A stretch of 33,244 nt of DNA, from NCBI GenBank assembly GCA_905235135.1, contig CAJOKR010000059.1, positions 1 through 33,244 on the forward strand, read 5' to 3'. The position numbers and the translations under genes were made by a program. Source of the DNA: an uncultured Bacteroidales bacterium. GTDB taxonomy: Bacteria > Bacteroidota > Bacteroidia > Bacteroidales > WCHB1-69. Below the pieces are notes generated by a model. It was not told the DNA's origin and ran no database searches. It saw only the letters and a list, made by a program, of their open reading frames with translations. Shown piece after piece: positions 2,319 through 30,098 of this stretch (positions within the stretch are counted from its first letter, which is position 1; each line of letters starts with the position of its first letter).

Positions 2319-3911
2319 ATGATGAATGAGAATAGACGTAGCGGTTGCCTTCTGTTTTTGTGGATTCTGGTCGCGTTTCTGGCCGGATTCTCCCTCGCGC
2401 TGCATATCAACCCGAACAAGCTGAGCAAGCGGGGCAACGAGCAGCTCAACAAAATGAGCGAAGTGATGGGGTACATCGACCGATACTACGTCGATTCTGT
2501 CAACGTGGACTCGATTTACGGGTTAGCTATCAACGCGATGTTGCAAGGGCTGGATCCGCATTCCACCTATTCCACCGCCGAGGACAACAAAACGATGATG
2601 GAGACGCTGGAAGGCTCGTTCGAGGGCATCGGCATCCAATTTAACATCATGAACGACACGCTGATGGTCGTTTCCGTGATTTCTGGCGGCCCGTCGGAGA
2701 AAGCTGGGCTGATGGCGGGCGACCGCATGATTGAAGTCGATGGGAAATCCATCATCGGAATCAAGAACGAGCAGGCTTTCAAACTGTTACGGGGCAAGAA
2801 GGGCTCCAAGGTGAAAGTCGGCATCTTGCGACCTGGGTTCAAGGAAAAATATACCTACGAAATCACTCGCGGCGTGATTCCAACCTACACGGTGGATGTG
2901 GCCTACATGATGGACGCGAAAATCGGCTATATCAAGCTCAATGAGTTTGGCAGCACTACCGCAAAAGAGTTCAACGATGCCATCCTGAAGCTGAAACGGC
3001 AGGGCATGACCTCCCTGATTGTCGATCTGCGCTCCAATACCGGCGGATTTTTGGATGCCGCCATCAGTGTCTGCGACGAATTCCTTCCCAAGAACCGAGA
3101 AATCGTCTCTATTGAAGGTTCCAAAGTGCGTCCCGAGGTGATTTACGCCTCGAAGAAGGGCGATTTTGAGGAAGGCAAGGTGGTGATACTGATTGATGAC
3201 TTCAGTGCTTCGGCAAGCGAGATTGTGGCCGGAGCTATCCAAGATAACGATCGCGGTATCATCGTGGGTCGTCGCTCGTTCGGTAAGGGCTTGGTGCAAC
3301 GGCAGTTCGATCTTTCCGACCAATCCTCCATCCGGCTGACCACCTCGCGCTACCACACCCCCAGCGGACGCTGCATCCAGCGCGAATATACCCACGGCAC
3401 GGATGCCTACTACGAAGACCTCTACAAACGGCTGCTCAACGGCGAGATGGAGAGTGCCGACAGCATCCATCTCGATTCCACGAAGGTGTATCACACGCTG
3501 AAAGGTCGCACGGTCTATGGCGGCGGTGGCATTATGCCCGACTATTTTGTGCCGATTGATCGTGGTGAGGATATGGATGCCTATTACGACATCGCCAACA
3601 CCTCGGCACTCATCCAATATGCCTTCCATTACGCCAATGACCACAAAGCTGAGTTGAAGAAGCAGTTCCCGGATGCCAAATCCTACGTTTCGGGAATGAC
3701 CGTCACGGACGCGATGCTGCAGCAGCTAGTCCAGTATTACGAAAAGCACAACAACAAGAAAGTTTCGAATATGACCGCCAACTCCTCCAAGGAGCTGAAA
3801 GCCTGGCTGAAAGCGCTCATCGGACGCAACTTATACGGCGACGAGGCCTTCTATCCGGTCATCAATAAGACGGATAAGGTGATTTTGAAGGCGAGAGAGG
3901 TGATTAATTAG
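2319..3911 (+). CDS. ctpA: S41 family C-terminal processing peptidase
   Basis: A membrane-anchored serine protease of the CtpA/Prc family that trims or degrades periplasmic proteins from exposed C-termini. From the ATG at 2319 it has 530 residues: a positively charged N-terminus and a hydrophobic anchor at about 10-28, an N-terminal helical domain to about 90, a PDZ domain at about 100-185 containing GGPSEKAGLMAGDRMIEVDG, and the S41 catalytic domain at about 195-375. The catalytic pair is visible: Ser298 in DFSASASEIVAGA and Lys323 in SFGKGLVQ, 25 residues apart as in the family. A TTG lies two codons upstream, but ATG 2319 (or 2322) is preferred. The stop codon TAG opens a short run of 7-bp repeats. 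The neighbouring aro gene is convergent, with its stop 31 bp away. Confidence 0.93.
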   Translation: MMNENRRSGCLLFLWILVAFLAGFSLALHINPNKLSKRGNEQLNKMSEVMGYIDRYYVDSVNVDSIYGLAINAMLQGLDPHSTYSTAEDNKTMMETLEGSFEGIGIQFNIMNDTLMVVSVISGGPSEKAGLMAGDRMIEVDGKSIIGIKNEQAFKLLRGKKGSKVKVGILRPGFKEKYTYEITRGVIPTYTVDVAYMMDAKIGYIKLNEFGSTTAKEFNDAILKLKRQGMTSLIVDLRSNTGGFLDAAISVCDEFLPKNREIVSIEGSKVRPEVIYASKKGDFEEGKVVILIDDFSASASEIVAGAIQDNDRGIIVGRRSFGKGLVQRQFDLSDQSSIRLTTSRYHTPSGRCIQREYTHGTDAYYEDLYKRLLNGEMESADSIHLDSTKVYHTLKGRTVYGGGGIMPDYFVPIDRGEDMDAYYDIANTSALIQYAFHYANDHKAELKKQFPDAKSYVSGMTVTDAMLQQLVQYYEKHNNKKVSNMTANSSKELKAWLKALIGRNLYGDEAFYPVINKTDKVILKAREVIN

Positions 3912-3943
3912 GTCGTAGGCAGTAGGCAAAAGCCGTAGGGAGT
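3909..3943. repeat. Short heptamer run starting at the ctpA stop codon
   Basis: The stop TAG begins TAGGTCG, followed in exact 7-bp register by TAGGCAG and TAGGCAA, then by decayed units up to the stop codon of the convergent aro gene. It fills the whole 31-bp spacer. The TAGGCA core also appears in the array after porV. Confidence 0.6.
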
Positions 3944-4962
3944 TACTGTTGGCGTTTGATGGATGTCTGGTGCAGCAGTTCTAAAAATTTGTCTATAAAT
4001 TCCTGGTAGGCAGAGTCTTCTGGATGCTTCAGGTATCGTTTCACCACTTGCTGCCACTGTTGAGGTTGCACTACGGCGATATGGTTCTTCCGTTTGATGT
4101 CTGCAATCTCATCCGAAATCAGCATTCGTTGGTAGAGAAGCTCACTGAGCTGATTGTCAATGTTTTCCAATTTTGCCCGCTGTTTGACGAGGGAGAGGTC
4201 GGGGGTGTCGTTGCGCAAATCCAGACCGGTAATCATCTCCGCCCATTGCATAGGAGTCATCTGCTGTTCCGCGTCCGACAATGCCTGTTGAGGTGTGCAG
4301 TGGCATTCCGTCATCAACCCGTCAAAGCCGTAGTTCATCGCGATTTGCGCCACCTCAGGAATCCAGCGTACCTGTCCGCATAGGTGCGACGGGTCGCAAA
4401 GGATGGGCAGTTCAGGCATCCGCACTTTCAGATCGATGGGAATCTGCCACACGGGCGCATTGCGATAGACGTTCTCCTGCGCATCGGGAAAACCTCTATG
4501 GACGGCCATCACCTGCCGCGCATCCGCTTTCAAAAACCGCTCGATATTGCCTATCCAGAGCTTCAGGTCGGGGATAACCGGGTTTTTGACGATGACGGTG
4601 AACCCGGAATGGCGCACCGCATCGGCAATCTGCTGGACCTCCGTGGGGTTTACGGCCGTTCGGGCACCTACCCATACCGTATGGATGTCGTGTTTCGCAC
4701 ACAGTTCCACCTGCCGGGCATTCATCACCTCCACACAGACGGGCACCTGCCACGTTTCCTGCACCTCTTCCAGCCAGGGCAGCGCATTCTCCCCCGCACC
4801 TGTGAAACTGTCAGGGGTGCTGCGAACTTTCCAAGCTCCCGCCCGGTAATAATCCAGCTTGATGGAGGCAAGTCGCGACTGTTCAACGAGTTGTCTCGCT
4901 GTTTCTAACACTTGCTCCCGTGTCTCTGCCGCACATGGCCCCGCAATCCAAATCCGTTTCAT
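3943..4962 (-). CDS. Bifunctional DAHP synthase / chorismate mutase (type II)
   Basis: The 339-residue fusion combines the first step of the shikimate pathway (phosphoenolpyruvate plus erythrose 4-phosphate to DAHP) with chorismate mutase, which sends chorismate to prephenate for Phe and Tyr. Residues 1-250 are a type I-beta DAHP synthase barrel: AGPCAAE at 7-13, YRAGAWKVRSTPDSFTG at 39-55, and DPSH at 190-193. Residues 258-339 are an AroQ-type helical mutase domain (IDNQLSELLYQRMLISDEIA, then KRKNH). The fusion is well known in Bacteroidota and probably gives allosteric control by prephenate. Its ATG overlaps the TAA of the preceding gene by one base (TAATG), so translation is probably coupled to that large exported protein of unrelated type. 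Confidence 0.93.
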   Translation of the reverse strand: MKRIWIAGPCAAETREQVLETARQLVEQSRLASIKLDYYRAGAWKVRSTPDSFTGAGENALPWLEEVQETWQVPVCVEVMNARQVELCAKHDIHTVWVGARTAVNPTEVQQIADAVRHSGFTVIVKNPVIPDLKLWIGNIERFLKADARQVMAVHRGFPDAQENVYRNAPVWQIPIDLKVRMPELPILCDPSHLCGQVRWIPEVAQIAMNYGFDGLMTECHCTPQQALSDAEQQMTPMQWAEMITGLDLRNDTPDLSLVKQRAKLENIDNQLSELLYQRMLISDEIADIKRKNHIAVVQPQQWQQVVKRYLKHPEDSAYQEFIDKFLELLHQTSIKRQQ

Positions 4963-7900
4963 TATTCTTCCTCCGTTTCGGGTTCTTCCTCAATGTCAGT
5001 GAAGTAGTTCTTCACAAACTTGTTCTTCAAACTCCTGTTACCCAGCTTGTAAGAGAACGACGGCAGTCCCTTGGCCTTGTCGGGCTCTTGGAAGCGGTTC
5101 TTCGGTTTTACGCTGGTGATAGCATCGTTAAATGCCTTGTCGGACGAGAACGCCGAAACCGCATTGTTGTCGAACTGGAAGTAGTAGAACTGGCTGTCGA
5201 ATTCGAAATAGAGATACAGCCGGTTTCTGGAACCGCGTTTCTCAATCACGATACGTCCGGGCACTGTTTTATAGACCTGTTTCGCACCGCAAACAATCAA
5301 TGGCAGAGAGGTTTGCGACTTGAAGGTGGAATGTTCCTTGTCCCACTCGAAGTCAATGTTAGAGAAAAGGAACTTCACCTGCAGGGCATCGGGCAGACGG
5401 CGGTTCTGACCCATCGCTGTACTGCGCACATAGCGGTCGTATTCAGCTTTCCCAAGGATGTTGTACAGGGCCAGATCGAAAGCCTCATCGCCCGAAACAT
5501 CCACAAAATCCAACGATGCTTTCTCTAACGCCTTGTTCATCAAGTCCATAGATTTATCGTTGAAGAAGAAATCGATGGAGGTGGTAAGGTGCATTTCGGC
5601 AGAATCGGCCATCATGAAGTTGACAATCGTACCGTTTGTGACAAAATCAACACGGCCGAGTTTCGCGCCCATATCGATGGTGCCGCTACCGTGTGCCTCG
5701 CAATTGTTGGTGTTGAGGATGATGATATTGCCGGGCACCGATGGATCCATCAGCTTTTCCTTGGAGGCAGCCTTGAACTCGCGGGTTTCCTTGTCGTAAG
5801 TGATGTAACCAAATACGTTGATGTATTCCGCATCGTTAAATTCGTCCTTTGCCACGCCGAACGCGGTGTAAATACGTCCGGTCTTGTTGCTGGAGGCAAT
5901 GGCCACCACCACTTTTCGCTCGTCCATATCCTTGGTGCGGTCGTGAACCTGAATCATGATGTTGTTGGGGTCAACTTGTTGCAGGATTTTCATACGGGCG
6001 TGCTTGAGGGTGTCGCAGCCGTGAATGATTTCCACCCCGCCGAAGTAGGACAGGAACGGGTTGGTGCTGTGCAGTTCGGCACGACCGTCAAAGGCGAACT
6101 GGTCGCTGAAATGGAAGTCCTTCTCCAACGGGATTTTCGCCTCGCCGAAGGTCTCCTTCATGAAATAGACGGTGTCGAAATAGATGGTCTGCACACGTTC
6201 TTCCGCGTCAATATAGTCGTAATAACCATTGGCATAGAACCTTGTGGCGCTTTGCACGCGGGTGGTGCAGTTGTAAAGTTCGTGGTATTTGTTCTCGCGC
6301 CCGGCGAGGATCCGTGATTTCTCCAGAACATCCATCGCCGCCTTCTTGCGAATGGTCACGTCTCCATGCAGGGGCGTGATGGCCGCATCCCCGACGTTGA
6401 TATAACGCACCCCGTGGGCGGTGATGATGTTCTTGGCGAAATCAAACTCAGCATTCACGGCGGTGAATTGGTAATTGACCTCCGGCACCACGGCATACAG
6501 CTCATTGCCAGTACTTTGCATATCCACCAGCTCCTTGATGGGCGTGTTGTCGATGTCGGTGTTCTTGTACGGGTCGTCCCACTTGAACCGCAGCATGGTG
6601 GAGTCGATAGGATCCCATTCGAACTCGGAGGACTTGGCTTTGACCTCGTTTTGCACGAAATAGACCACAGAAGCTTCACCATTGGCTAAGAAATGTCCTT
6701 TTCGGGTCTTGAAGTCGATGTGGGAGTTGTAGTTGTCGGTGGAAAAAGCCACATCTTTCCCGCCGCTGATGTCATATATCCGCAGGTCGGCAGTGTCAGC
6801 CAGAATCTCGTGATGTTTGAACTGGAACAGCCGCGAGGAGATGTCAGCGCGGTTAAATTTCACGATACCAGTGCCGTACATGCCGTGTGGGGTAATCTTG
6901 GAATTGCCGGTCAAAGTGGCCTCGGTGAAGAGGTCCATCGGATTCTCCAAGGTGTGTATAAACATCTGATCCTGATAGGGCTCCCAGTGCAGGTAAGCCT
7001 CTTCAACCGATGCCGGTGGGAATTCCGTGCCCGCCATCTGCTCATCCACGATGTGACGATTGGCCGATCCGTTTGTGGAATCGATGTAGAAGACCAAACT
7101 GTCGGAAAGGGTGTGCGAGGTGATGTAGTCGATGGTGCCCTTGCCGCGCAGACCTCTGTTGCTCAAACTGATACGGCCTTGATAGCCGCCACGGGTGCCA
7201 TACATCGGCAGTCCGGCGGTGTTGTGCACGAAACCCAACGAGAAGTCGGATTGTACCTTCAAAGGCTCGGCAATGTCGGGGAAAATTCCGCCGGATATCA
7301 GCGCGCCGGAGAACTTCATGGAATCGATAACAAAGTTGTCCAAATTCACGATACGGAACTGGTTGACAGCGTAATAGAATTTGTTCCGGTCGTAAACCCC
7401 GCCCAAGACGTAGGGCTGGTCGTAGAAGACCTTGCCGCCCTTGCGCGCTTCGAAGATGGGATAATCGGGATAGTCGGTCATGCCGCATTTGTTGCCCGGC
7501 ATATCGATGTAGAGCACACCGGAAAGCTCCTCAATCTGGCTGCGGACGCGCTGCAGTTTGTAGTCGCCGTACATATCCATCGGGCCGTTTTTGTCCTCCA
7601 CGTACATGATCAGCGTGTCGATGATGTCCATATCGATGAGGAAACGGTCGTAGTCGAAGGCACAGTTATGGGTCACGAAATCGAACAGACCGCCGATTAC
7701 GCGGCCCGAAAAGACCATGTTGCGGTTCTTCTTCACTGTGACTATCTCGTCCATGGGATAGACGTTGACGATTTGCGGGTCGCTGAGCACGAAGAATTCG
7801 CAGCCGGTGATTTTCAGGTCGTTGGTGGCCAAATCGAGGGAAGCGTAGTGCGTTTTCGATTGCAGCTTGATGTAGTCGTAGTCTTTCCTTTTGACCTGAT

Positions 7901-8297
7901 TGTTAAGGTATTGCGCAATCTTACTACGGTAGTGGATGCGGTTGTTGTTAATGTCATATTCGATAAAACCGCGGGCCGCAAAGTCAATCATCATCGCCTT
8001 GATATCCAAAGGCGGTTTGTTGAACCAGCGGATGACATCTTCAATTGTAAGATCTTCATATTCAGCACTGTTGAAGAGTTGCCAGAGGGTGTAGAGCGGG
8101 TTCTGTGTGTTAAAACCGGCAATTTCGTGCATCACCGATTCTTCGTAGTAGTTTTGTGACTCGAAGTAGGCTTCCTGAACGCTGGTATTGCCCACAATCG
8201 GCTTAAGCTCAATGCGTTTCTCGGTGGTTACCCATTGCACGGATTCCACATACATATCGAGTTTATGGTAGGAGTCGAAGAAGGGGGAACGGCCCAC
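4962..8297 (-). CDS. Large exported protein of unknown function, C-terminal piece after frameshift
   Basis: I do not recognise this protein. The frame is open upstream of the GTG at 8297 to at least 8411, where it joins the N-terminal piece through a frameshift, so the GTG is not a real start. The 1111 residues visible lack membrane segments and consist of many alternating hydrophobic/polar stretches with repeated Gly and Asp turns, suggesting a long beta-rich periplasmic or outer-membrane-associated protein. A helical stretch near residues 85-115 (LTIEDVIRWFNKPPLDIKAM) looks like a small winged-helix-like unit. The C-terminus is acidic and rich in Glu. There is no T9SS C-terminal domain. The stop overlaps the aro start by one base. 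Similar proteins of about 1500 residues probably exist in Bacteroidales, but I cannot name a family. Confidence 0.7.
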   Translation of the reverse strand: MGRSPFFDSYHKLDMYVESVQWVTTEKRIELKPIVGNTSVQEAYFESQNYYEESVMHEIAGFNTQNPLYTLWQLFNSAEYEDLTIEDVIRWFNKPPLDIKAMMIDFAARGFIEYDINNNRIHYRSKIAQYLNNQVKRKDYDYIKLQSKTHYASLDLATNDLKITGCEFFVLSDPQIVNVYPMDEIVTVKKNRNMVFSGRVIGGLFDFVTHNCAFDYDRFLIDMDIIDTLIMYVEDKNGPMDMYGDYKLQRVRSQIEELSGVLYIDMPGNKCGMTDYPDYPIFEARKGGKVFYDQPYVLGGVYDRNKFYYAVNQFRIVNLDNFVIDSMKFSGALISGGIFPDIAEPLKVQSDFSLGFVHNTAGLPMYGTRGGYQGRISLSNRGLRGKGTIDYITSHTLSDSLVFYIDSTNGSANRHIVDEQMAGTEFPPASVEEAYLHWEPYQDQMFIHTLENPMDLFTEATLTGNSKITPHGMYGTGIVKFNRADISSRLFQFKHHEILADTADLRIYDISGGKDVAFSTDNYNSHIDFKTRKGHFLANGEASVVYFVQNEVKAKSSEFEWDPIDSTMLRFKWDDPYKNTDIDNTPIKELVDMQSTGNELYAVVPEVNYQFTAVNAEFDFAKNIITAHGVRYINVGDAAITPLHGDVTIRKKAAMDVLEKSRILAGRENKYHELYNCTTRVQSATRFYANGYYDYIDAEERVQTIYFDTVYFMKETFGEAKIPLEKDFHFSDQFAFDGRAELHSTNPFLSYFGGVEIIHGCDTLKHARMKILQQVDPNNIMIQVHDRTKDMDERKVVVAIASSNKTGRIYTAFGVAKDEFNDAEYINVFGYITYDKETREFKAASKEKLMDPSVPGNIIILNTNNCEAHGSGTIDMGAKLGRVDFVTNGTIVNFMMADSAEMHLTTSIDFFFNDKSMDLMNKALEKASLDFVDVSGDEAFDLALYNILGKAEYDRYVRSTAMGQNRRLPDALQVKFLFSNIDFEWDKEHSTFKSQTSLPLIVCGAKQVYKTVPGRIVIEKRGSRNRLYLYFEFDSQFYYFQFDNNAVSAFSSDKAFNDAITSVKPKNRFQEPDKAKGLPSFSYKLGNRSLKNKFVKNYFTDIEEEPETEEE

Positions 8298-9435
8298 GCC
8301 CTGCTTCGGACGCGAGATGAGCAGGCTCTTTTTCTCGTTGTCGTACTTGAAGTTGGCGGCGGGGTGGTAGATGGAGTCGGTTTCGATGTAGAGGGCGACT
8401 TTGGCGTCCTCTCAGCAGGTTGGTAGGACGGATGAGGAAGCTTAGCGATTGGGCTTTGATAATGACTTCGCCCTCATTGTAGATGGTCACTGTTGCCAGC
8501 GTGTCGCCATGGCCCGTCCCGAAAATGGATGCGCCGTGCATCTCAAAACCGCCCACATAGTCCACATCCTTGTAGAGATTCTTGACCGGTAGGGTGGCCT
8601 CCAGGCTGGTGAAACGCGGGTAGGTGGCCTTCTCTTCGGAGGTGGGCAGCATGGCCTTCTCCTCCACGCGGCCGATGATGGGCTGTGAGAACAGCTTCGG
8701 ATAGTAGAAAAGGGCATCGTCGGCCACCACACGCGGGAAACGCAAGTCGATGTCGTAGGTTTTCAGCTCGGCCCGCACGTTGGCCTCCAAGCCCGCACGG
8801 TCCCAGGAGATAGTGCCGCCGTTGGCCTTGAACAGCAGCTTGTCGGGGTAATAACGGCCGTCCACACCGCTGACAATCAGGCTGTCCTTGGCGGAATAGC
8901 CCCACAGGTCGATGCCCTTGAAGTCGAAATAAGGTTCCTGGTCGAAGCCCAGATGGTCGGAAAACCCCATAGCAATCCACTTCACGTTGTCCCCTTGGTT
9001 CATGATATTGTCTCGGAAGAAACCGGCGTAGAGGTCCATCTTTTCTTGGAAAAACGTGGAACTCTTCCCGATATGGTAGTCCAGAATTTTCTGCCAGGTT
9101 TCCGTCTCGCTGGCATACTGGCTCTGCAGGAAGACGTCGTAGGTGCGGATAAAACTCTGGAAATGAGGAATCGGACGGTGTTTTTTCTTCACCATCTTGT
9201 TGGCTTCCGCAATGAAGACCTCTTGGTTGTCGAGATCCATGCGGGTGGTCCACATCAGTTCGAACTCCTCCAAAATCTCCTTGGACTCCTTTTGGCGGTC
9301 TTTGGGTACGGAAGAATAGAATTCCTTCATTTCCTCAACCGTTTTGGAGGGGTCGTTGGAGAACGAAGTGAACCGCTGTGCATTTGCTAAAACGCTAATA
9401 CACAGCAGAATGCTGAATATCAGAATCTTTTTCAT
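8263..9435 (-). CDS. Large exported protein of unknown function, N-terminal piece before frameshift
   Basis: The start at 9435 gives a clear signal peptide (MKKILIFSILLCISVLANA, then QRFT). A helical region of about 150 residues follows, then beta-rich sequence. The authentic frame ends near 8412, after the codons for PTNLL. The remaining residues to the stop at 8263 are out of frame and arginine/proline-rich. Reading on in the frame of the downstream piece from 8411 gives EDAKVALYIETDS and continues smoothly to RPKQGVGRSPFF. The total from 9435 to 4962 is 4474 nt, which is 1491 codons plus one base, as expected for a one-base insertion or a two-base loss. The intact protein would have about 1490 residues. 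A -7 box lies just upstream. Confidence 0.75.
   Translation of the reverse strand: MKKILIFSILLCISVLANAQRFTSFSNDPSKTVEEMKEFYSSVPKDRQKESKEILEEFELMWTTRMDLDNQEVFIAEANKMVKKKHRPIPHFQSFIRTYDVFLQSQYASETETWQKILDYHIGKSSTFFQEKMDLYAGFFRDNIMNQGDNVKWIAMGFSDHLGFDQEPYFDFKGIDLWGYSAKDSLIVSGVDGRYYPDKLLFKANGGTISWDRAGLEANVRAELKTYDIDLRFPRVVADDALFYYPKLFSQPIIGRVEEKAMLPTSEEKATYPRFTSLEATLPVKNLYKDVDYVGGFEMHGASIFGTGHGDTLATVTIYNEGEVIIKAQSLSFLIRPTNLLRGRQSRPLHRNRLHLPPRRQLQVRQREKEPAHLASEAGRGPFPLLRLLP
8409..8416 (-). other. Frameshift site in the large exported protein gene
   Basis: On the coding strand CTGCTGAGAGGACGCC passes from one frame to the next with one surplus base at or near 8412. There is no long homopolymer and no slippery heptamer. 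The extra base could be an A within GAGAG, or two bases of a serine codon may be missing. Sequencing or assembly error and true inactivation are both possible. Confidence 0.8.
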
Positions 9436-9455
9436 TATCTTACAAAAATGGTCTG

Positions 9456-9463
9456 CAAATCTA
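9456..9463 (-). promoter_or_regulatory. -7 box (TAGATTTG) of the large exported protein gene
   Basis: TAnnTTTG match on the minus strand, 20 bp before the ATG at 9435. This also supports that start over the longer ORF reaching 9534. Confidence 0.6.
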
Positions 9464-9502
9464 CATAAATTCCGAATACGCACCGACGGTAGATGTGGCC
9501 GT

Positions 9503-9551
9503 TGTAGAGACGCCACAATGTGACGTCTCCACACAATGTAACGTCTCTACA
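9503..9551. repeat. REP family A element with a duplicated arm
   Basis: The sequence starts TGTAGAGACGCCACAATGTG and ends ACGTCTCTACA. The right arm is present twice as an 18-bp tandem repeat (ACAATGTGACGTCTCCAC, then ACAATGTAACGTCTCTAC). The helicase stop codon TAG at 9549-9547 lies inside the distal arm. Related elements occur at 12112-12141 and 30575-30599. Confidence 0.8.
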
Positions 9552-12024
9552 CCCGTTGCATTTCCGCGAGCACGGTCCGCAATTCCCAAAAATCGTAATC
9601 CTCGCCCAAGACCTCGCGGGCTCTCCCCAACGACAGGTCGCCCGTGGATTCGAAATAGTCGCGGATGGTGTCGCATTTTTCGGAATCGATAAACTGGTCG
9701 GCGTTGAAGTCGCCATCTCCGACCAGCCGTGTGATGTGGCCGTAGATGGTGGAAAGCGCAAGACCCCGTTCTTTGGAGATTTCTTCTGCCGTCATACCTT
9801 TGTTGAGCATCTCTTTGGTGATGAGGAAGGTGTTGCCAGAGTTCTTTTTCAGAAGCCGTTCCTCCCAATCGTCCTTTTCACCGCTCCCGTCAGGGGTTCG
9901 GTCGCTGTATTGCCGCACGATGGTGATGATTTCCTCGCCGTATTGCGCCATGCGCTTAGGTCCCATGCCGTCAACCCCTTTTAACTCGCGCAGCGTGATA
10001 GGCTCGGCACTGGCGATGCTCTTGAGGATTTTGTTGGGGATTATGTTGTAAGTTATTTCGTCATCCTCGTCGGCCTTATCGTCGCGCCATGCCTTCAATG
10101 CCTCATACAGCGAGCCCTTCTCCATCATGGCATCCCTGATGGCCGGCGGGCGGTTCTCCTTCTTCTCGGCCTTCATCGTGGCGGCGGATTTGGCCCGCAG
10201 GTAGGCTACCGCGCTGAAGCCTTCTGTACATGCCTCTAAACAGCCCCGCTTGACCGTCACATCCGCGTAGAGTATCGTGAGGGTGTCTGTAAGTTGCTCG
10301 TTCACAGCCTTGTTGTCGGTTTTGTACGGAAGCTCGAAAAGCCCGTTGGTGATATTGTCGAGATGCTCCTTAAAATAGGCGGCGGCATTTTTCAGCCGTT
10401 CCTGCAGTGGTTTGTTGCTCTCGCAGACCGGGTTTTCCTGCTGCTGGCTTTTCAGCTGCCGGGCGAATTTCGTGCCCACATCGCACAGCTCGTGCTGAAC
10501 CCGTTCCATTCGGCTCATCAGGTCCTGAATCAGGGCGGGCTCAAAGAGTTTTTTGTAGGCGAGTAGGAGGCCGCCTAATTTTCCAATGTTTCGGTAAATC
10601 TTTTGGAAATCAATCAGTTCGAGAAGATTCTCCAGCTCGTAGCACTGTCTCAGCTGATCCACTTTCTCTCTCGACGGCTCCCTTTCCGGCATCTCATCCA
10701 CAAAGTGGTTCACCTTGTAATCGTTGACCAGCGTTTGCGGGGTCAGTCGGGTTTTCAGCACCAGCCCTTGCAGCGATGTGCAGCGGCTGAGCGCGACATA
10801 CACCTGCCCGTGCGCGAAAGCGTGACCCGCATCCACAATCAGCTTGTCGAAGGTCAGCCCTTGACTTTTGTGGATGGTCACGGCCCACGCTAACCGCAGA
10901 GGGATTTGTGTGAAGGTGCCGATGATGGTCTCCTCCACCTGCTGGGTCTCTTCGTTGAGGGCGTAATCGCGGTTCGCCCACTCGATTTTGGAGACGGAGA
11001 TGTGCTCATCGCCGCATTGCACTACCAGCACACCGTTATCTTTGTTGTATTCGACTAACCACCCGATTTTTCCGTTGAAATAGGCTTTTTCGGGGTTCGG
11101 GTCGTTCTTGATGAACATTACCTGCGCTCCGACTTTGAGTTCGAGGGTTTCCCGCGTGGGATACATGCTTTCGGGGAAGATACCCTTGATGTCGGCGGTG
11201 AAGGTCAGTTTTTCGGTCTTGAGCTCGTCGAGTTTCCGGCTGTTGATATCGTCCGCTTGGTAGTTGTGGGTGGTGAGGGTGATGTAACCGTCGTCATCTT
11301 TTGGGGTGAAATCGGGCAGGTAGCGGGAGTTCAGCAGTTGTACGCACGAAGCATCCATCTCGTTGTGTCTCACCTTGTTGAGTAAGTCGATGAAGCTCTG
11401 GTCGTGCTGCCGGTAGATGTGGTCGAGTTCGACGCAGAGGTAGGGAGTGCTGCGGAGGACGTGACTGCCGAAGAAGTAGGTGGTGTCGTAGTAGGGGGCG
11501 AGGATTTCCCAATCTTCGGGTTTGGCCACGGGTGCAAGCTGGTGTACGTCACCGATCATCAGCACTTGTACGCCGCCGAAGGGCCTGGAGGAGCGTCTGG
11601 CGCGACGTAGCACGGCATCTATGCCGTCTAATACGTCGGCCCGCACCATACTGATCTCATCGATGATGAGCAGGTCGAGGGCGCGCATGAGCTGCAGTTT
11701 CGGTTTGCGGATTTTCTGGAACTGGGTGGCCATCGCCTGCGACCGGAAGTTGCCCCGGCTCGCGATGTTCTGCGCATCTTCGGGGATCTGCGCCCCGAAG
11801 GGCAGCTGGAAGAACGAGTGGATGGTTTGACCGCCGGCGTTGATGGCTGCGACGCCCGTGGGCGCGACCACCGCCATGCGTTTCGCGGTCTTCATGGGCA
11901 GACTTTTCAGGAATGTGGTCTTCCCCGTGCCCGCCTTCCCCGTCAGGAAGATGTGCGCATCGGTGTGGAGGACGATTTCTTCCACGAATTGAAGTTTCTG
12001 GTTGACAATGTTTTGAACGGTCAT
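9547..12024 (-). CDS. PIF1-like helicase with HRDC and C-terminal helix-turn-helix domains
   Basis: A superfamily 1B DNA helicase of 825 residues, probably acting in replication fork or recombination maintenance. The N-terminal helicase core shows GKAGTGKT (Walker A, 29-36), APTGVAAINAGGQTIHSFF at 55-73, DEIS (Walker B, 123-126), IGDVHQLAPV near 158-167, and late motifs AVTIHKSQGLTFD and VYVALSRC. After a helical linker, the segment around 640-705 has an HRDC-like pattern ending LKGVDGMGPKRMAQYGEEII. The C-terminus has a helix-turn-helix (MTAEEISKERGLALSTIYGHI), as in RecQ-type tails. This architecture is common in Bacteroidota. The ATG at 12024 follows a good -7 box. The stop codon is part of a REP element. 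Confidence 0.92.
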   Translation of the reverse strand: MTVQNIVNQKLQFVEEIVLHTDAHIFLTGKAGTGKTTFLKSLPMKTAKRMAVVAPTGVAAINAGGQTIHSFFQLPFGAQIPEDAQNIASRGNFRSQAMATQFQKIRKPKLQLMRALDLLIIDEISMVRADVLDGIDAVLRRARRSSRPFGGVQVLMIGDVHQLAPVAKPEDWEILAPYYDTTYFFGSHVLRSTPYLCVELDHIYRQHDQSFIDLLNKVRHNEMDASCVQLLNSRYLPDFTPKDDDGYITLTTHNYQADDINSRKLDELKTEKLTFTADIKGIFPESMYPTRETLELKVGAQVMFIKNDPNPEKAYFNGKIGWLVEYNKDNGVLVVQCGDEHISVSKIEWANRDYALNEETQQVEETIIGTFTQIPLRLAWAVTIHKSQGLTFDKLIVDAGHAFAHGQVYVALSRCTSLQGLVLKTRLTPQTLVNDYKVNHFVDEMPEREPSREKVDQLRQCYELENLLELIDFQKIYRNIGKLGGLLLAYKKLFEPALIQDLMSRMERVQHELCDVGTKFARQLKSQQQENPVCESNKPLQERLKNAAAYFKEHLDNITNGLFELPYKTDNKAVNEQLTDTLTILYADVTVKRGCLEACTEGFSAVAYLRAKSAATMKAEKKENRPPAIRDAMMEKGSLYEALKAWRDDKADEDDEITYNIIPNKILKSIASAEPITLRELKGVDGMGPKRMAQYGEEIITIVRQYSDRTPDGSGEKDDWEERLLKKNSGNTFLITKEMLNKGMTAEEISKERGLALSTIYGHITRLVGDGDFNADQFIDSEKCDTIRDYFESTGDLSLGRAREVLGEDYDFWELRTVLAEMQRV

Positions 12025-14332: not shown

Positions 14333-14340
14333 TTCTTTTG

Positions 14341-14549
14341 ATGTTTATTGTTTGATGTTTACTGTTTACAGTTTAAGGTTTAGGGTTTAAGGTTTAGGGT
14401 TTAAGGTTTAGGGTTTAAGGTTTAGGGTTTAAGGTTTAGGGTTTAAGGTTTAGGGTTTAAGGTTTAGGGTTAAGGTTTAGGGTTTAAGGTTTAGGGTTTA
14501 AGGTTTAGGGTTTAAGGTTTAGGGTTTAAGGTTTAGGGTTTAAGGTTTA
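14341..14549. repeat. Heptamer array filling the lspA-S46 spacer (30 units)
   Basis: Read on the minus (coding) strand, the array begins with the TAA stop of lspA. Units TAAACCT and TAAACCC then alternate for 25 heptamers (13 and 12), followed by five diverged units of type TAAACNN or CAAACAA. One unit has lost a base near 14470, so the length is 30 x 7 minus 1. Only eight bases separate it from the S46 ATG. The 25 regular units contain no G on the coding strand. Stop triplets occur in all six frames. Confidence 0.95.
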
Positions 14550-15218
14550 AATGCCCGCTTCATCATTCATAGACGCTCCGTCCTCCTCTTTTGCTACATT
14601 TTCCTCCTGTTTTTCTTCCAAATCGCTGAATATCCGTTTGTTGAAGATAATTGCCATAAAGATTCCAACAGTGATGCAGGAGTCGGCGAAATTGAAGACG
14701 GCGGGGAAGAACCACGAGCCGCCCCAGAGCGGGAATCCTTCGGGGATGGGGAAGAGTTTGAAGTAGAACATGTCGACCACTTTGCCGAAGAAAAACGGCG
14801 CATAGCCATGCCCGGGCGACCATTGCGCCACCTGCAGGAAGTTGCTCTCGGTGAAGAGGATGCCGTAGAACATGCTGTCGATGATGTTTCCGATGGCGCC
14901 GGCGATGACGAGGCAGAGGATAGTCAACACTAACCCGTCCATCTTCTCGCGGCGGATGCGGTTGGCGGTGTACCAGCAAAGCACACACACCAGCAGGATG
15001 CGTACGAGCGACAGGATGAACTTCCCGACCTGCTGTCCGAAGCTGATGCCGAAAGCCATGCCCTCGTTCTCCACAAAGTGCAGGTTGCACCACTCCCCAA
15101 TCAACGGAATCGTTTGGCCTAAAGCAAGATGCGTCTTCACCCAAAACTTGATGACCTGGTCAATGACGATGAGCAGAAGCACAACGGCAGCGGCAATCCA
15201 AGCGTATTTCTTTTTCAA
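14547..15218 (-). CDS. lspA: Lipoprotein signal peptidase (signal peptidase II)
   Basis: An inner-membrane aspartyl protease that removes signal peptides from prolipoproteins after lipid attachment to Cys. The catalytic dyad is Asp114 in GAIGNIIDS and Asp179 in VFNFADS, with the upstream FVENEGMAFG motif at 48-57. Four membrane segments are evident at about 7-23, 66-82, 96-112 and 181-193. The 223-residue length exceeds the roughly 165 of E. coli because of an insertion between the catalytic motifs (about 118-170) and a charged tail. The only plausible start is TTG at 15218-15216, giving MKKKYAW; no in-frame ATG lies between it and the -7 box at 15265-15272. Its substrates here would include the GldJ-like protein and two small lipoproteins. 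Its stop codon is the first triplet of the heptamer array. Confidence 0.93.
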   Translation of the reverse strand: MKKKYAWIAAAVVLLLIVIDQVIKFWVKTHLALGQTIPLIGEWCNLHFVENEGMAFGISFGQQVGKFILSLVRILLVCVLCWYTANRIRREKMDGLVLTILCLVIAGAIGNIIDSMFYGILFTESNFLQVAQWSPGHGYAPFFFGKVVDMFYFKLFPIPEGFPLWGGSWFFPAVFNFADSCITVGIFMAIIFNKRIFSDLEEKQEENVAKEEDGASMNDEAGI

Positions 15219-18501: not shown

Positions 18502-18627
18502 CAAGTACTTGCTATGGGGATGGCAAGTATCAGGCATAGTGCAGGCATACTGCAGGCATACTCTACCAAGTCGAAAGTACTTGCTTGGACTTGCCTACTA
18601 CTTGCCTACTACTTGCCTACTACTTGG
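18502..18627. repeat. 11-bp tandem repeats between purD and pnuC
   Basis: Two arrays with the same 11-bp period lie here. At 18529-18561 three units occur, the last two being exact copies of TGCAGGCATAC. At 18591-18623 there are three exact copies of TTGCCTACTAC (CAAGTAGTAGG on the minus strand, extended by GTAGTAGGCAAG contexts). The palindrome CAAGTACTTG is at 18502-18511 and a related AAGTACTTGC at 18575-18584. The second array overlaps the 3' end of pnuC and supplies its stop codon. Confidence 0.85.
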
Positions 18628-21273: not shown

Positions 21274-21331
21274 ACCTTTGACCTTTAACTCTCTAACCGT
21301 GTAACCGTCTAACCTTTAAACCCCTAATAAT
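21271..21331. repeat. Degenerate 7-8 bp repeat between engB and the META lipoprotein gene
   Basis: Starting with the engB stop, units TGAACCT, TTGACCT, TTAACTC and TCTAACC run in 7-bp register. They are followed by 8-bp units ending TAACC or AAACC, then CCTAATAAT before the ATG. The whole spacer is C/T/A-rich on the coding strand and resembles a decayed form of the arrays after lspA and porV. Confidence 0.5.
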
Positions 21332-21778
21332 ATGAAACACTATGTTATAACCCTTTTGGCAGCAACCTTGGTTTTAGTCGGTTGCGGCTGCAAAACCTCC
21401 AAGAAAAGCGTGAAAGCCGTAGAGTACCCCCTCGTCGGAACGCAGTGGAACTTGGTGGCCATTGACGGAGAGAAAATCAGCAACGAGTTTGCCTTGCGTC
21501 CCTTCATTACGTTCGATACCGTCGGTGGGGTGCAGGGAAATCTCGGCTGTAACTCTTTCTTTGGAGAATATACCGTCAACAAAAAGCACAAAATGACCTT
21601 GGGCTATCAGGGTTCCACGAAACGCCTCTGTTCGCAGATGGATGTTGAGAAACAATTTATGCAGGCGTTGAAACGCGACATCACCCGTTACGAAATCAAG
21701 GGCGAAGAGCTGATTCTTTTCGCTGGCAACAAAGAGGTGATGCGTTTCACCGGCGTCGATTTGAGCAAGGTCGAGTAG
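21332..21778 (+). CDS. META domain lipoprotein (HslJ-like)
   Basis: The 148-residue product starts MKHYVITLLAATLVLVGC; LVGC is a good lipobox with Cys18. After a short linker with KTSKKS, residues 33-145 form a META/HslJ domain: GTQWNLVAIDG, then VQGNLGCNSFFGEY, then STKRLCSQMDVEKQFMQAL and a final strand pair ending EVMRFTG. HslJ-type proteins are small envelope proteins linked in E. coli to novobiocin tolerance; the molecular role is unclear. No clear TAnnTTTG box precedes it (AACCTTTG at 21273-21280 is one base off), so it may be read through from engB. A bidirectional terminator follows its stop by about 35 bp. Confidence 0.88.
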   Translation: MKHYVITLLAATLVLVGCGCKTSKKSVKAVEYPLVGTQWNLVAIDGEKISNEFALRPFITFDTVGGVQGNLGCNSFFGEYTVNKKHKMTLGYQGSTKRLCSQMDVEKQFMQALKRDITRYEIKGEELILFAGNKEVMRFTGVDLSKVE

Positions 21779-24500: not shown

Positions 24501-24522
24501 ATTCGTTTTTATTTATAGCGGG

Positions 24523-25795: not shown

Positions 25796-28512
25796 GGTCT
25801 GCGACGGGCACCCAGTTAATCTGCCTTTCCATCGGAGATTTCACCTTCAATACTTCGTCTGCAAGTTTGAATGTGTCCATAACGTACAACAAACCAACCA
25901 CTTCCGCTGTCGGCTATTTGGATTGGATTGAGGTGGAAGTGCCGTGTGCGCTGACAATCCGGAATGGGCAGACCGCCTTCCGGAATCCAGCCACCGTGGG
26001 TGCGGGCAACGTTACCCGATTTAATCTGCAAAGCGTTTCGGCTTCTGCTTCCGTTTGGGATGTCACCGACCCAGGCCAGACTGTGCGTATCGCGCTGAAT
26101 TCGGATAACCAAGGCACCCATTTTAAGGCGGCCACTTCCGACCTGCGGGAATTTATCGCATTTGATGGCTCTAACTTCTTGTCGGTTACGCCGTTGTCTT
26201 TCGTCGCCAACCAAAATCTGCACGCCACGGGTAACGTCGATATGGTGATTGTGGCGCATCCCGATTTTCTCTCACAGGCCAACAGATTGGCGCAGTTTCG
26301 TGCTGAAAATGACGGCCTTAGCGTGAAGGTGGTGACCCCGCAGCAGGTTTACAACGAGTTTTCAAGCGGCTCGCAGGATCCTATCGCTATCCGCGACTAC
26401 ATGAAGATGATTTACGATCGCACTAACAAGCAATACCCCAAATATTTGCTGCTGTTCGGTCGTCCCAGCTACGATTTCCGTGGTCGCGCCCAAGGGACCG
26501 CCCTCTATGTGCCCAATTTTGCCTACAATATTGAATATAGGGACAACGCCAACCCGCAGTATTACTACATTTCGGAAATCCGAGGTCAGTACACGGGCGA
26601 CGATGCCTTGGGACTTTTAGACGATGGAGAGGGTTTCAACGGAAATGGGCTGTACGACCTGGGTGTTGGCCGTTTTCCGTGTACGTCGGCTTCGCAAGCG
26701 GCCGTGGCGGTCGATAAGAGCATCCGTTACACCGAGAAACGGAATCTGGTGGGTGAGAATTCCACGCAGGTTTCCAATTTCGGCGATTGGCGCAATATGA
26801 TGGCGTTTGTGGCGGATGATGAGGAAAGTAACGATTTTGTCTATAATGCCGACCTTTTCACAAAATATGTGGAATCCGACAACCCGAACATCAATTTTGA
26901 CAAGATCTATCTGGATGCTTACCAGCAGGTCTCCAACGCCGGCGGGCAGCGCTATCCGGATGTGGTGACGGACATCAACAACCGGATGGATCGAGGGGCG
27001 TTGTTTTTCACCTACATTGGGCACAGCGGCAAGGATGGCTGGGCGGCGGAGCGGGTGCTCGAAAACTCTGACATTAGCAAATGGAACAACAAGTACAACC
27101 TGACGGCCATGATTTCGCTGTCGTGTACCTTTGCCTATTACGACCGTTTGATTTCCTCGCCCGCGGACCTCATCTTCTTCAACAACGAGGGCGGTGCCGT
27201 GGCGGTGATTGCTGCCGCACGCGAGGCTTGGTCGCTGCCAAACAACGTTTTCGGAAAACATTTCTTCAATCTGATGTTCGAAAAAGATGAAGAAGGCAAC
27301 TATTTGTCAGTAAGTGATTTGCAACGGAAAGCGAAGAATCTCTACGGTCCGGTTACTGGCGGCAAGGGCAACGACCTCTGCATGTTTGTCACTTTCGGCG
27401 ACCCGTCCATCAAGTTGGCAGTGCCTAAATATAATATAGTAACAGATTCCATCAACGCCGTGGCGGTGGGCACCTCAACAGACACAGTTCGCGCCCTTTC
27501 GAAAGTGACGGTCAGCGGGCGTGTCACCGACGATAACCTGCAGACACTGAGCAGTTTCAACGGCACCGTCTTCCCGTCGGTTTACGACAAGAAGGTGATT
27601 GCCAGCACGTTGGTGAACGATCCTGCCCCCAATTATTCTCCGTTCGAGTTCGAGGTGCAGAAAAGTCTGCTCTTCAAGGGCAACGTGACGGTGAAAGACG
27701 GCCGATTCCGTTTCTCGTTCTATGTTCCCAAGGACATCGACTACACTTTCGGAAACGGCAAAATCAGCTATTACGCCCGCTCCGAGCATGAGGATGCGGC
27801 CGGTGTGTTCACGGATTTTATCATCGGCGGCATGGACACAGCCGGCATTCAGGATGACGAGTGTCCGGTTATTGAGCTGTACATGAACGACGAAAATTTC
27901 GTCAATGGTGGCATCACGGGCACGAGCCCCACGCTGATTGCCAAGATTTCCGACAATTTCGGCATCAACACCACGGGTAACGGTATCGGCCACGACATGA
28001 CCGGCGTGCTGGATCGTAACACGGGCAACAAAATCATCCTCAACGACTACTACCAGACCGAAAAGGACAGCTTCAGCTGCGGCACCGTGCGGTATCAGCT
28101 GCAGGATCTGACGCCCGGAGACCATACGATTTCCGTGCGGGCGTGGGATGTCAACAACAACAGTGCGGAGCGGGAGCTGACGTTCCGGGTGATGAGTGAG
28201 GACAAGTTCGAGCTGAAGCATGTGCTGAACTATCCTAACCCCTTCACCACGCACACCGAATTCTATTTCGAACACAACCAGCCAGGCGGCACTTTCGACA
28301 TCCAGGTGAACATTTACACCATCTCCGGCAAACTGGTTAAAACCCTGTACGACAGTCAGTACATGGAGGGCAACCGCTGTCGCGCCATCTCCTGGGACGG
28401 TCTCGATGATTTCGGCGACAAGTTAGCGAAAGGCACCTACCTCTACCGCGTCCGCGTGAAAACTGAGGACGGCCGGACTGCCGAGGCGGTGGAAAAGTTG
28501 GTGATTCTATAG
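25741..28512 (+). CDS. porU: PorU, C-terminal piece with C25 peptidase domain
   Basis: The frame is open upstream of the ATG at 25741 back to about 25658, so this ATG (MSNFQVSVNQS) is an internal Met, not a start. The piece contains the C25 (gingipain-like) caspase-fold domain: AQFRAENDGLSVKVVTPQQV, KYLLLFGRPSYDFRG, LGVGRFPCTS, and the catalytic His (codon at 27022) in YIGHSGKDGW and Cys (codon at 27124) in ISLSCTFAYYD. These would be about residues 796 and 830 of the intact 1291-residue protein. The last 95 residues (VLNYPNPFTTHTEFYFEHNQ onwards) are a T9SS C-terminal-type/FlgD-like beta domain. Three heptamers of TGANGAA type follow the TAG stop. porV lies 161 bp downstream on the same strand, as usual for this pair. 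Confidence 0.88.
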   Translation: MSNFQVSVNQSQVGNLTLRSATGTQLICLSIGDFTFNTSSASLNVSITYNKPTTSAVGYLDWIEVEVPCALTIRNGQTAFRNPATVGAGNVTRFNLQSVSASASVWDVTDPGQTVRIALNSDNQGTHFKAATSDLREFIAFDGSNFLSVTPLSFVANQNLHATGNVDMVIVAHPDFLSQANRLAQFRAENDGLSVKVVTPQQVYNEFSSGSQDPIAIRDYMKMIYDRTNKQYPKYLLLFGRPSYDFRGRAQGTALYVPNFAYNIEYRDNANPQYYYISEIRGQYTGDDALGLLDDGEGFNGNGLYDLGVGRFPCTSASQAAVAVDKSIRYTEKRNLVGENSTQVSNFGDWRNMMAFVADDEESNDFVYNADLFTKYVESDNPNINFDKIYLDAYQQVSNAGGQRYPDVVTDINNRMDRGALFFTYIGHSGKDGWAAERVLENSDISKWNNKYNLTAMISLSCTFAYYDRLISSPADLIFFNNEGGAVAVIAAAREAWSLPNNVFGKHFFNLMFEKDEEGNYLSVSDLQRKAKNLYGPVTGGKGNDLCMFVTFGDPSIKLAVPKYNIVTDSINAVAVGTSTDTVRALSKVTVSGRVTDDNLQTLSSFNGTVFPSVYDKKVIASTLVNDPAPNYSPFEFEVQKSLLFKGNVTVKDGRFRFSFYVPKDIDYTFGNGKISYYARSEHEDAAGVFTDFIIGGMDTAGIQDDECPVIELYMNDENFVNGGITGTSPTLIAKISDNFGINTTGNGIGHDMTGVLDRNTGNKIILNDYYQTEKDSFSCGTVRYQLQDLTPGDHTISVRAWDVNNNSAERELTFRVMSEDKFELKHVLNYPNPFTTHTEFYFEHNQPGGTFDIQVNIYTISGKLVKTLYDSQYMEGNRCRAISWDGLDDFGDKLAKGTYLYRVRVKTEDGRTAEAVEKLVIL

Positions 28513-28540
28513 TGATGAATGACGAATGTTGAAAATCAAT
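28513..28540. repeat. Three heptamers after the porU stop
   Basis: Immediately after the TAG come TGATGAA, TGACGAA and TGTTGAA in 7-bp register, then a diverged unit. The spacer to porV otherwise holds AT-rich sequence without a canonical -7 box. Confidence 0.45.
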
Positions 28541-28673: not shown

Positions 28674-29924
28674 ATGAATAAGCAAGTTATGAAAAAAGCA
28701 GCGACTATTTTATCCTGTATTCTACTTTTCATTACAGTGCGTGTCAGTGCCCAGCTTACCCCGGACCAGTTGAGCGGTAAGTATCTGAACTCCATTACTA
28801 CGGCGGTGCCGTTCCTCACCATTGCCCCCGACTCCCGTGCAGGAGCTATGGGTGATATCGGTTGTGCCACTTCCGCCGACGCAAACTCCCAGAGCTACAA
28901 CCCCGCCAAGTACATTTTTAACGAGAACCGTTTCGGTTTCAGCGTCTCCTACAGCCCGTGGTTGCGCCAGCTGGTGAACGACATCAACCTGGCTTACCTC
29001 GCCGGATACTGGAGAATCACGGATATGGACGCTATCGCTGCGTCGTTGCGCTATTTCTCTTTGGGCGACATTGAGTTTATGGATGAGAACGGTAATCCCG
29101 TCAGCACCCAGAACCCCAATGAGTTCGCCATCGACTTCACCTATTCGCGTAAGCTGATTGATCAGCTTTCTATCGCTATCACGCCGCGCTTCATCTACTC
29201 CAACCTGACAGCTGGACAGTATGTCGGTAGCGAAGAGACGAAAGCGGGTCTGGCTGGTGCAGCCGACATCTCCTTGTTCTATCAACAGGATTTTGATGTT
29301 AAAGGCCTTGAGAACAGTACGTTGCGTGCTGGTTTGTGTATTTCGAACATGGGTAACAAGATGTCCTACTCTTTCGGAACATTGCGCCGTGACTTCCTGC
29401 CCACCAACCTGAAGTTGGGTATCGGTTACGAGATGGATTTCGATGGCTATAACAAGCTGGCTGTCAACGGTGAAATCAACAAACTGTTGGTGCCTACCAA
29501 CCCGATTTATGCAACGGACGATGATGGTGTTATCATTTACGATGCCGCCGGCAATCCGGTCATCGAAGCTGGCAGGAATCCCGATGTTTCCGTGCCGCAG
29601 GGTATGATTCAGTCGTTCTACGATGCTCCGGGCGGTTTCATGGAGGAGATGCGCGAGATCATGTGGGCCTTAGGTGCTGAGTACAGCTACCGTAACCTCT
29701 TCTTCGTGCGCCTCGGCTACTTCCACGAGAGCCAGTACAAGGGCAACCGCCAGTTCCTTTCTGTCGGTGCCGGTATCAAGTACAGCATCTTCGGCATTGA
29801 TGTCTCCTACCTCATTGCTACCAAACAATACCACCCGCTGGCCAACACCCTGCGCTTCACCCTCAACTTCGACTTCGTCTCCGCCAACAAGAACGAAATC
29901 AAGCAACAAGGTCGTTTGAAATAA
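28674..29924 (+). CDS. porV: PorV, T9SS outer-membrane shuttle protein
   Basis: PorV (LptO in Porphyromonas) is a FadL-like outer-membrane barrel that collects cargo from the T9SS translocon and brings it to the PorU-containing attachment complex. The 416 residues start with a signal peptide (MKKAATILSCILLFITVRVSAQ from the in-frame ATG at 28689; 28674 is also possible). The mature start has the family motif VPFLTIAPDSRAGAMGDIGC, followed by SYNPAKYIF. A long loop with the segment IYATDDDGVIIYDAAG, and beta-strands throughout, are as expected. A C-terminal run of Lys/Arg follows the last strand. ACGAGCAA lies 14 bp before the start, as before porU. The gene ends in TAA that begins the heptamer array reaching ispF. 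Confidence 0.93.
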   Translation: MNKQVMKKAATILSCILLFITVRVSAQLTPDQLSGKYLNSITTAVPFLTIAPDSRAGAMGDIGCATSADANSQSYNPAKYIFNENRFGFSVSYSPWLRQLVNDINLAYLAGYWRITDMDAIAASLRYFSLGDIEFMDENGNPVSTQNPNEFAIDFTYSRKLIDQLSIAITPRFIYSNLTAGQYVGSEETKAGLAGAADISLFYQQDFDVKGLENSTLRAGLCISNMGNKMSYSFGTLRRDFLPTNLKLGIGYEMDFDGYNKLAVNGEINKLLVPTNPIYATDDDGVIIYDAAGNPVIEAGRNPDVSVPQGMIQSFYDAPGGFMEEMREIMWALGAEYSYRNLFFVRLGYFHESQYKGNRQFLSVGAGIKYSIFGIDVSYLIATKQYHPLANTLRFTLNFDFVSANKNEIKQQGRLK

Positions 29925-30098
29925 GGCATTAGGCATTAGGCAGAAGGCAACAGGCATTAGGCAGAAGGCAACAGGATCCTTAAACCCTAAACCCTAAACC
30001 TTAAACCTTAAACCCTAAACCCTAAACCTTAAACCCTAAACCCTAAACCCTAAACCTTAAACCCTAAACCTTAAACCTTAAACCTTAAACTTTGAACC
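29922..30098. repeat. Heptamer array filling the porV-ispF spacer
   Basis: From the porV stop the sequence stays in exact 7-bp register to the base before the ispF ATG. The first part has eight units of AGGCANN type (from 29924: AGGCATT twice, AGGCAGA, AGGCAAC, then the last three repeated and AGGATCC). Next come 17 units (29980-30098) of TTAAACC or CTAAACC in irregular order, the last two diverged to TTAAACT and TTGAACC. The total is 25 heptamers, 175 bp. The stretch 29978-30093 has no G on the coding strand. The array after lspA has the same core and orientation relative to transcription. Confidence 0.95.

Follow-up and report, generated by a model that had tools for sequence, protein, structure and literature searches.

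Heptamer repeat arrays between genes of an uncultured Bacteroidales bacterium: many units under one rule of placement and polarity

Analysis of a 33,244-nt contig of an uncultured Bacteroidales bacterium (GenBank assembly GCA_905235135.1, contig CAJOKR010000059.1; referred to as the window) and of further stretches of the same genome showed that tandem arrays of seven-base, less often eight-base, units are concentrated between genes, are often anchored at stop codons, and mostly carry more G than C on the strand that reads outward from the nearest gene. A preliminary description of the window had reported arrays at the stop codons of six genes (lspA, porV, ctpA, engB, porU and pnuC) and had proposed that their units, each containing a stop triplet and having a period not divisible by three, end translation in every frame and thereby insulate neighbouring genes. 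The association with gene ends is real and genome-wide, and the outward G-over-C rule is stronger than the proposed rules of period and frame closure. Repeats of this kind have been known before; the novelty lies in the many different units that obey a single geometric rule.

The source genome is a draft of 3.26 Mb in 118 contigs (88% complete) of which the window is one contig (C59), and long copy numbers are uncertain because the assemblies are drafts. Together with 60 further stretches the window gives a sample of 1,159,601 bases, or 35.5% of the genome. Genes were predicted with a purpose-written dicodon caller, not Prodigal, which called 930 genes in the sample (941 under slightly different training); called starts are approximate, and called stops are exact provided the frame is correct. 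Pfam matches agree with the gene names (peptidase S41, signal peptidase II, NMN transporter, GTPase, peptidase C25 and PorV) and identify YgbB (IspF) after porV. Arrays were called with a match-run detector, applied period by period to intergenic, coding and shuffled sequence, and with Tandem Repeats Finder (TRF, score of at least 36), and runs of period 1–3 were filtered out. Spacers below 10 bp or above 1499 bp and stretch ends were excluded from the spacer analyses. As relatives we used five genomes of the same genus (G012, G013, G020, G023 and G031; 670 kb) and as outgroup four genomes from other families (266 kb). Ruminant gut is named as the source for eight of 28 loci encoding a porV relative, and ten of the 28 carry RUG-type names, which we take to denote rumen genomes.

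The match-run detector found 108 period-7 arrays in intergenic and nine in coding sequence, compared to 0.4 expected from shuffled intergenic sequence, which, with runs of period 1–3 removed, rules out chance or low complexity. The corresponding intergenic, coding and shuffled counts were 9/1/0 for period 8, 3/2/0 for period 9, 1/1/0 for period 10, 5/2/0.2 for period 11, 2/1/0 for period 12, 2/0/0.4 for period 13 and 9/1/0 for period 14. TRF likewise assigned 164 of 275 intergenic arrays to period 7 (15, 10, 14, 17 and 12 to periods 8 to 12, respectively), while its 162 coding arrays mostly had periods of 12 (59), 9 (27) or 15 (15), favouring multiples of three as expected, and only 13 had period 7. 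At 892 gene ends, scanned for runs whose first base falls from 10 nt upstream to 8 nt downstream of the stop codon's last base, a run score of at least 9 was reached 77 times at period 7, 11 times at period 8, and 0–2 times at each of the periods 5, 6 and 9–12. Thus, the phenomenon is one of period 7, less often 8, and is not general to periods indivisible by three: between genes, periods 9 and 12 occur about as seldom as periods 10, 11 and 13, and the depletion of periods divisible by three that the preliminary description would lead one to expect is not seen. A small opening for its period idea is left by G020, in which seven 6-bp intergenic arrays with related AGTCTA/ATAGTC units (L145, L149, L150, L152) form a separate class beside the heptamers; none of them touches a neighbouring gene, the nearest edge being 7 bp away. 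Most 12-bp arrays of this genome (five of six) are its 6-bp arrays counted twice.

Spacers between genes of the same direction contain 100 arrays of period 7 or 8, and 34 of these have an edge at positions −7 to +1 of the stop codon, a three-fold enrichment over the 11.7 given by uniform placement (maximum 26 in 2000 trials). The start edge is not enriched (8 of 100 compared to 11.8 expected, starts being approximate). The relatives G012 (11 of 26 arrays, 3.3 expected) and G020 (9 of 27, 2.3 expected) contribute most of the anchoring signal of the five same-genus genomes, with G023 (1 of 3, 0.2 expected) and G013 (2 of 4, 0.2 expected) adding small counts; in total, 94 arrays were found in the relatives and three in the outgroup. 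Moreover, 20 of 51 arrays at stops hold the whole stop codon in register, compared to 10.5 after exchange of gene ends; the relatives have 18 of 43 compared to 6.1. This indicates that the stop is often supplied by the repeat, as had been seen at pnuC. This test takes arrays with an edge at −30 to +1 of the stop and by choice includes those running through it. Arrays also occur in 11 of 75 convergent spacers. As to stop usage in the relatives, TAG terminates 19 of 43 genes at arrays compared to 92 of 380 genes overall; the two shares are alike in our genome (11 of 51 and 171 of 674).

The polarity of the arrays is seen on both sides of a gene. Within 15 nt of a stop codon, G outnumbers C on the sense strand of 47 of 65 arrays (17 with more C, one tie) and of 47 of 55 arrays of the relatives, and within 15 nt of a start C outnumbers G on that strand in 18 of 20 and 7 of 7, respectively. 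Before starts the bias persists beyond 15 nt (21 of 27 arrays, and 11 of 14 in the relatives), and convergent spacers follow it as well (8 of 8 and 8 of 9). At stops it holds for units without any GG or CC (23:4, and 27:3 in the relatives) and for arrays without an inverted partner (31:13 and 39:2). Counted per distinct unit, 22 follow the rule, eight oppose it and three tie, compared to 32 following and three opposing in the relatives. Background skew of the spacers is ruled out as the cause in our genome, where array-free spacers are little skewed, both after stops (G 0.225, C 0.214; 166 with G over C and 135 with C over G, n = 326) and before starts (G 0.182, C 0.189; 184 and 192, n = 416). 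The background spacers of G031 favour C after stops as well as before starts, contrary to the stop-side rule. As a reason for the array polarity, protection from Rho-dependent polarity does not fit the convergent spacers, which follow the same rule.

With rotations and strands merged, the 108 arrays comprise 38 distinct units, of which AAACCTT accounts for 36 arrays; AAACCTT/AAACCCT is the top variant pair in 19 of the 35 arrays of that group. Single-linkage families of units are uninformative, since random heptamers chain together too. Within the genus, 13 of 36 genomes, ours included, have two successive TAAACCC units, compared to none of 24 genomes from other families. The reversed pattern used as control is absent from our genome and present in six of 60 genomes (G019, G022, G026, G028, G031 and G047), in which this pattern too forms a heptamer repeat. 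The stop codon of lspA illustrates how units vary between species at one place: period-7 runs exceed the threshold there in seven of 30 genomes, ours included, with four kinds of unit, and one further run has another period. AAACAGT-type units are found at the lspA stop of the relatives L214 and L215. Among 64 comparisons of orthologous junctions with the five relatives, at least one species has an over-threshold array at 14 and both have one at four, with differing units in three of the four (units judged by eye). A single mobile repeat as sole cause is ruled out by the 38 units and the four kinds at lspA, in agreement with the preliminary description, which had argued against one mobile repeat.

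In our genome, arrays widen some gene junctions that are tight in relatives. The spacer with the array after engB measures 58 bp here and −4 to 18 bp in 29 relatives; these include G012 (6 bp), with an EngB 94% identical to ours. Between porV and ispF we find 174 bp, and among the 25 of 28 related loci that could be measured, 21 have at most 22 bp; three of the four longer ones (L096, L097 and L115) contain heptamer-like repeats by eye and the fourth (L116) does not. Of the spacer idea, the part that stands is that neighbours packed closely in relatives are further apart here; its frame closure and period logic do not stand as general rules. The arrays also break assembly and account for some contig breaks: six of 55 stretches starting at the first base of a contig (L018, L020, L022, L048, L050 and L052) start inside a period-7 array, compared to four of 2000 random internal positions.

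We consider it probable that the arrays are simple sequence repeats of high turnover between genes, mostly heptameric and more rarely octameric, of the kind known from Xanthomonas, Nostoc and Beggiatoaceae, and that they are renewed by slippage and filtered by selection at gene junctions. Slippage during replication, or unequal recombination, would create and renew the arrays, which would turn over fast, and their units would change by mutation and re-amplification. Purifying selection would exclude them from reading frames, which would make the stop codon itself the first place that an array can occupy; a 7-bp duplication that retains the first stop would leave the protein unchanged, and in many arrays the stop does come from the repeat. 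A second filter would set the orientation such that an array reading outward from its nearest gene has more G than C, leaving the sense strand poor in G directly ahead of starts and richer in G than C directly behind stops. Closure of all three frames would mainly be a by-product of A+T-rich period-7 units. None of the ideas tried explains the polarity fully.

Several observations weigh against this explanation. Slippage is deduced rather than directly observed, and no variation within species was seen. Slippage alone does not predict 38 units in place of the approximately 100 expected for random intergenic heptamers, and this limited vocabulary means that dispersal, conversion or sequence preference must act besides it. 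The polarity is gone at more than 15 nt from stops (8:9, and 8:10 in the relatives), it is broken at 17 of the 65 stops in our genome, six of them with TAACCGTG-kind octamers and four with AAACCTT/AAACCCT, and start-side units without GG or CC are too few and split 2:2 (2:0 in the relatives). Anchoring is not clear in G031 (stop edge 1 of 12, 0.7 expected). Although the stop side is the closer one for 69 of the 100 arrays, this falls to 55 when a 20-nt leader is allowed on the start side, so that part of the stop preference is leader avoidance. Finally, the engB stop is over threshold in only one of 30 genomes (ours being below threshold) and the porV stop in one of 26 (a set without ours); thus, lspA is not typical.

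Alternatively, although we think this rather unlikely, a process at gene ends that is independent of the unit may form arrays on the stop codon with the G-over-C strand outward, whatever the heptamer. Like geometry in three phyla, i.e., here and, by the data of PMC4692102, in Xanthomonas and Nostoc, suggests that the cause could be a state of DNA or RNA and not a sequence or a quadruplex. Such a state could exist where translation ends, for example as ribosome-free transcript, as an R-loop or in encounters of replication with transcription. The data separate the placement and polarity of bacterial heptamer repeats from their sequence, and the genus, with dozens of units and 40 genomes, lends itself to testing the cause.

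Copying of arrays or their seeds between loci, by a transposase or by gene conversion, would account for the restricted set of units and the predominance of the AAACCTT/AAACCCT pair, and four Y1_Tnp matches were found. In addition, a dispersed element of approximately 95 bp is about three times commoner in array spacers (12 of 112) than in array-free spacers (21 of 587). However, once the heptamers are masked, similarity to another flank is limited to 38 of 129 arrays (96 pairs), all 12 of the longest pairs listed are connected with this element, and arrays at one stop in different species carry different units. No reverse transcriptase (RVT_1) was found above the cut-off in the 88% complete genome, with one match below it, which speaks against this enzyme as a source. 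We regard dispersal as an unlikely main explanation. The element itself, CCTTGAGCAG...AATTAACCCCACA...TGTGGGG, lies between genes at 35 places, including L038:19573-19682 and two outside the array and array-free spacers compared above; an element of this kind stands beside the lspA array in the relative L218 (by eye).

A transcript stem formed by a stop-side and a complementary start-side array, whose complementarity selection would keep while the unit changes, is quite unlikely as a general explanation, although such a hairpin role is possible for a minority of arrays. Inverted partners are in excess, with 18 of 118 arrays compared to 5.9 for permuted units (maximum 12, n = 200) and 13 of 88 compared to 2.5 (maximum 8) in the relatives, and at one orthologous junction GACTTNA/AAGTC arms in our genome correspond to GGTTACAC/GTGTAACC arms in G012 (by eye). 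Yet a partner is present for only about 15% of the arrays, the number of direct partners also exceeds the permuted mean (10 compared to 5.4, and 11 compared to 2.9 in the relatives), and the polarity at stops holds for arrays without an inverted partner, as stated above. Folding of transcripts from tandem spacers of 50–300 bp gave similar median z-scores for array spacers (−0.91, n = 71) and a random 40% of the array-free ones (−0.84, n = 112), and T-runs show no enrichment, being present in 14 of 87 array spacers and 95 of 437 array-free tandem spacers. Without an excess of T-runs or a separation by fold z-scores, intrinsic terminators are rejected as a general function; single cases may differ, and one spacer in L022 does have a stem with a T-run.

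The proposal that the arrays are kept as spacers to stop translation in every frame and to insulate adjacent genes is improbable in the light of these data. Besides the placement of arrays on stops in our genome and its relatives, it is favoured by three-frame closure in 36 of 55 arrays compared to 28.3 under permuted positions (reached by three of 1000 permutations), by the density of stop triplets beyond the stop codon (sense 0.114, antisense 0.071, shuffled units 0.093; 0.106, 0.061 and 0.082 in the relatives), and by the 6-bp arrays of G020, none of which reaches a gene end. Closure was not replicated in the relatives, however (24 of 45 compared to 21.2; 178 of 1000 permutations), and is above the null in our genome only, so that it fails as a general rule. 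The G-over-C polarity predicts a higher stop density on the sense strand than on the antisense strand, as two of the three stop codons hold G and none holds C. A stop content of the units beyond that given by composition was not confirmed as a general rule. In addition, the convergent spacers that hold arrays have no downstream start to insulate, and the intergenic periods show no avoidance of 9 and 12.

It is highly improbable that the arrays are G-quadruplex repeats of the class of the published GGGNATC arrays, whose location and polarity (PMC4692102) they share: four GGG/CCC tracts with loops of 1–7 occur in none of 84 arrays here and three of 62 in the relatives, which refutes three-tier quadruplexes as a general cause, and at stops the polarity is kept by units that lack both GG and CC.

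Intergenic heptamer arrays have been described before, in contrast to the statement of the preliminary description that no such system was known. According to Rehm et al. 2015 (PMC4692102), quadruplex-forming GGGAATC and GGGGA(C/T)T repeats of Xanthomonas and Nostoc are intergenic, rare between divergent genes, and near or overlapping stops; their G-rich strand points outward from the nearest gene, inverted pairs occur in 70 and 75 cases, units are heterogeneous, and shorter and mutated repeats are distributed alike. One G-rich unit type was studied per genome, and the function was left open. The authors also cite Calothrix PCC7601, in which three tandem heptanucleotides differ from each other, so that the presence of several heptamers in a single genome had been reported earlier. 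Our arrays share with this type the period of 7, the intergenic concentration, the scarcity between divergent genes, the heterogeneity of units, the proximity to stops, the outward G-rich strand within 15 nt and inverted pairs in a minority of arrays; they differ by their dozens of units, almost none of which could form a three-tier quadruplex, and by their occurrence in Bacteroidales. They are a variant of the Rehm-type heptamers and not a member of the G-quadruplex class. The quadruplex property of the published cases cannot cause the matching geometry here; diverse units under one geometry exclude three-tier quadruplexes as general cause.

TAACTGA direct repeats were described in marine Beggiatoaceae, cyanobacteria and five Bacteroidetes (MacGregor 2015, PMC4679880). 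Forward repeats give stops in all three frames and some sets overlap the upstream stop, most lie just before start codons, where binding of a translational regulator was suggested, and other heptamers occur in some of the same Bacteroidetes spacers. Our arrays resemble them in being intergenic heptamers that overlap upstream stops, and differ in that the necklace AACTGAT is not among the 38 units and that the start edge is not enriched. Mrazek 2007, as cited in PMC4692102 and PMC4679880, found heptamers to be the most abundant long simple sequence repeats, proposed polymerase slippage, and saw multiples of three more in coding sequence; this was a survey, and the citing passages mention neither anchoring nor polarity. 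The degenerate heptanucleotide repeats of the Nostoc tRNA-Leu intron, whose arms pair and whose copy number varies, sit inside an intron at one site (P6b stem; PMC3488679). Other heptamer reports concern phase-variation tracts in Haemophilus and a survey of repeat classes. Within the literature searched, with subscription papers outside it, we found no account of dozens of heptamers under one placement and polarity rule per genome.

Of the six sites described in the window, those at lspA, porV and pnuC are strong, that at engB is real but degenerate, and those at ctpA and porU are weak. The lspA array (TAAACCT/TAAACCC, 14371–14550, minus strand; 25.9 copies by TRF) extends from the lspA stop towards the next gene, a peptidase of family S46 (12173–14332), and the stop TAA (14547–14549) lies inside its first unit. 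It is adjoined, next to the start of the peptidase gene, by a stretch of the TAAACAG/TAAACAT/CAAACAA type (14337–14375, minus strand). At porV, a GGCANNA array (29924–29970, plus strand) begins within the stop codon (29922–29924) and is followed by 15.7 copies of TAAACCC/TAAACCT (29981–30090, plus strand), which end 8 bases before the ispF start (30099). The pnuC stop (18598–18600) is contained in an 11-bp array with the sense unit AGTAGGCAAGT (18589–18626, minus strand); a second 11-bp array, CAGGCATACTG (18531–18562), lies in the same convergent spacer and is partly inverted relative to the first (by eye). Read from the sequence, the arrays at the lspA and engB stops are C-rich and so depart from the polarity rule, whereas those at porV and pnuC have G over C and the TAAACCC array before ispF is C-rich, in line with it.

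The 58-bp spacer between engB and the gene at 21332 carries a degenerate mixed 7/8-bp array of the TAACCGT type (21281–21327, plus strand) with a period-7 score of only 6. The ctpA stop and its 31-bp spacer hold two GTAGGCA units (3909–3942, plus strand; period-7 score 7), and the porU stop is followed by TGATGAA TGACGAA TGTTGAA (28510–28535, plus strand; score 6); TRF calls the arrays at lspA, porV and pnuC and, in degenerate form, engB, but makes no call at ctpA or porU, which are below its threshold. At the lower score of at least 6, 109 of the 892 gene ends qualify at period 7, 23 at period 8, and 5–10 at each of the periods 5, 6 and 9–12. Given this excess at period 7, the repeats at engB, ctpA and porU are probably decayed arrays. 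A counter-example to the period rule is a 9-bp array (1518–1568, plus strand) located 20 nt past the stop at 1497.

Besides the arrays, palindromes or near-palindromes of the GTAGAGACGC...GCGTCTCTAC type recur between genes (43 places by one probe), among them 9514–9552 and 30578–30600 of the window and the porV–ispF spacer of L097. At two orthologous junctions our genome has a palindrome where G012 has heptamer arrays (by eye). At 480–590 of the window, the spacer of two genes holds the inverted repeat agagggtgtgtca...tgacacaccctct, and the minus-strand open reading frames 4962–8297 and 8263–9534 overlap by 35 bases (8263–8297) and may represent one interrupted gene.

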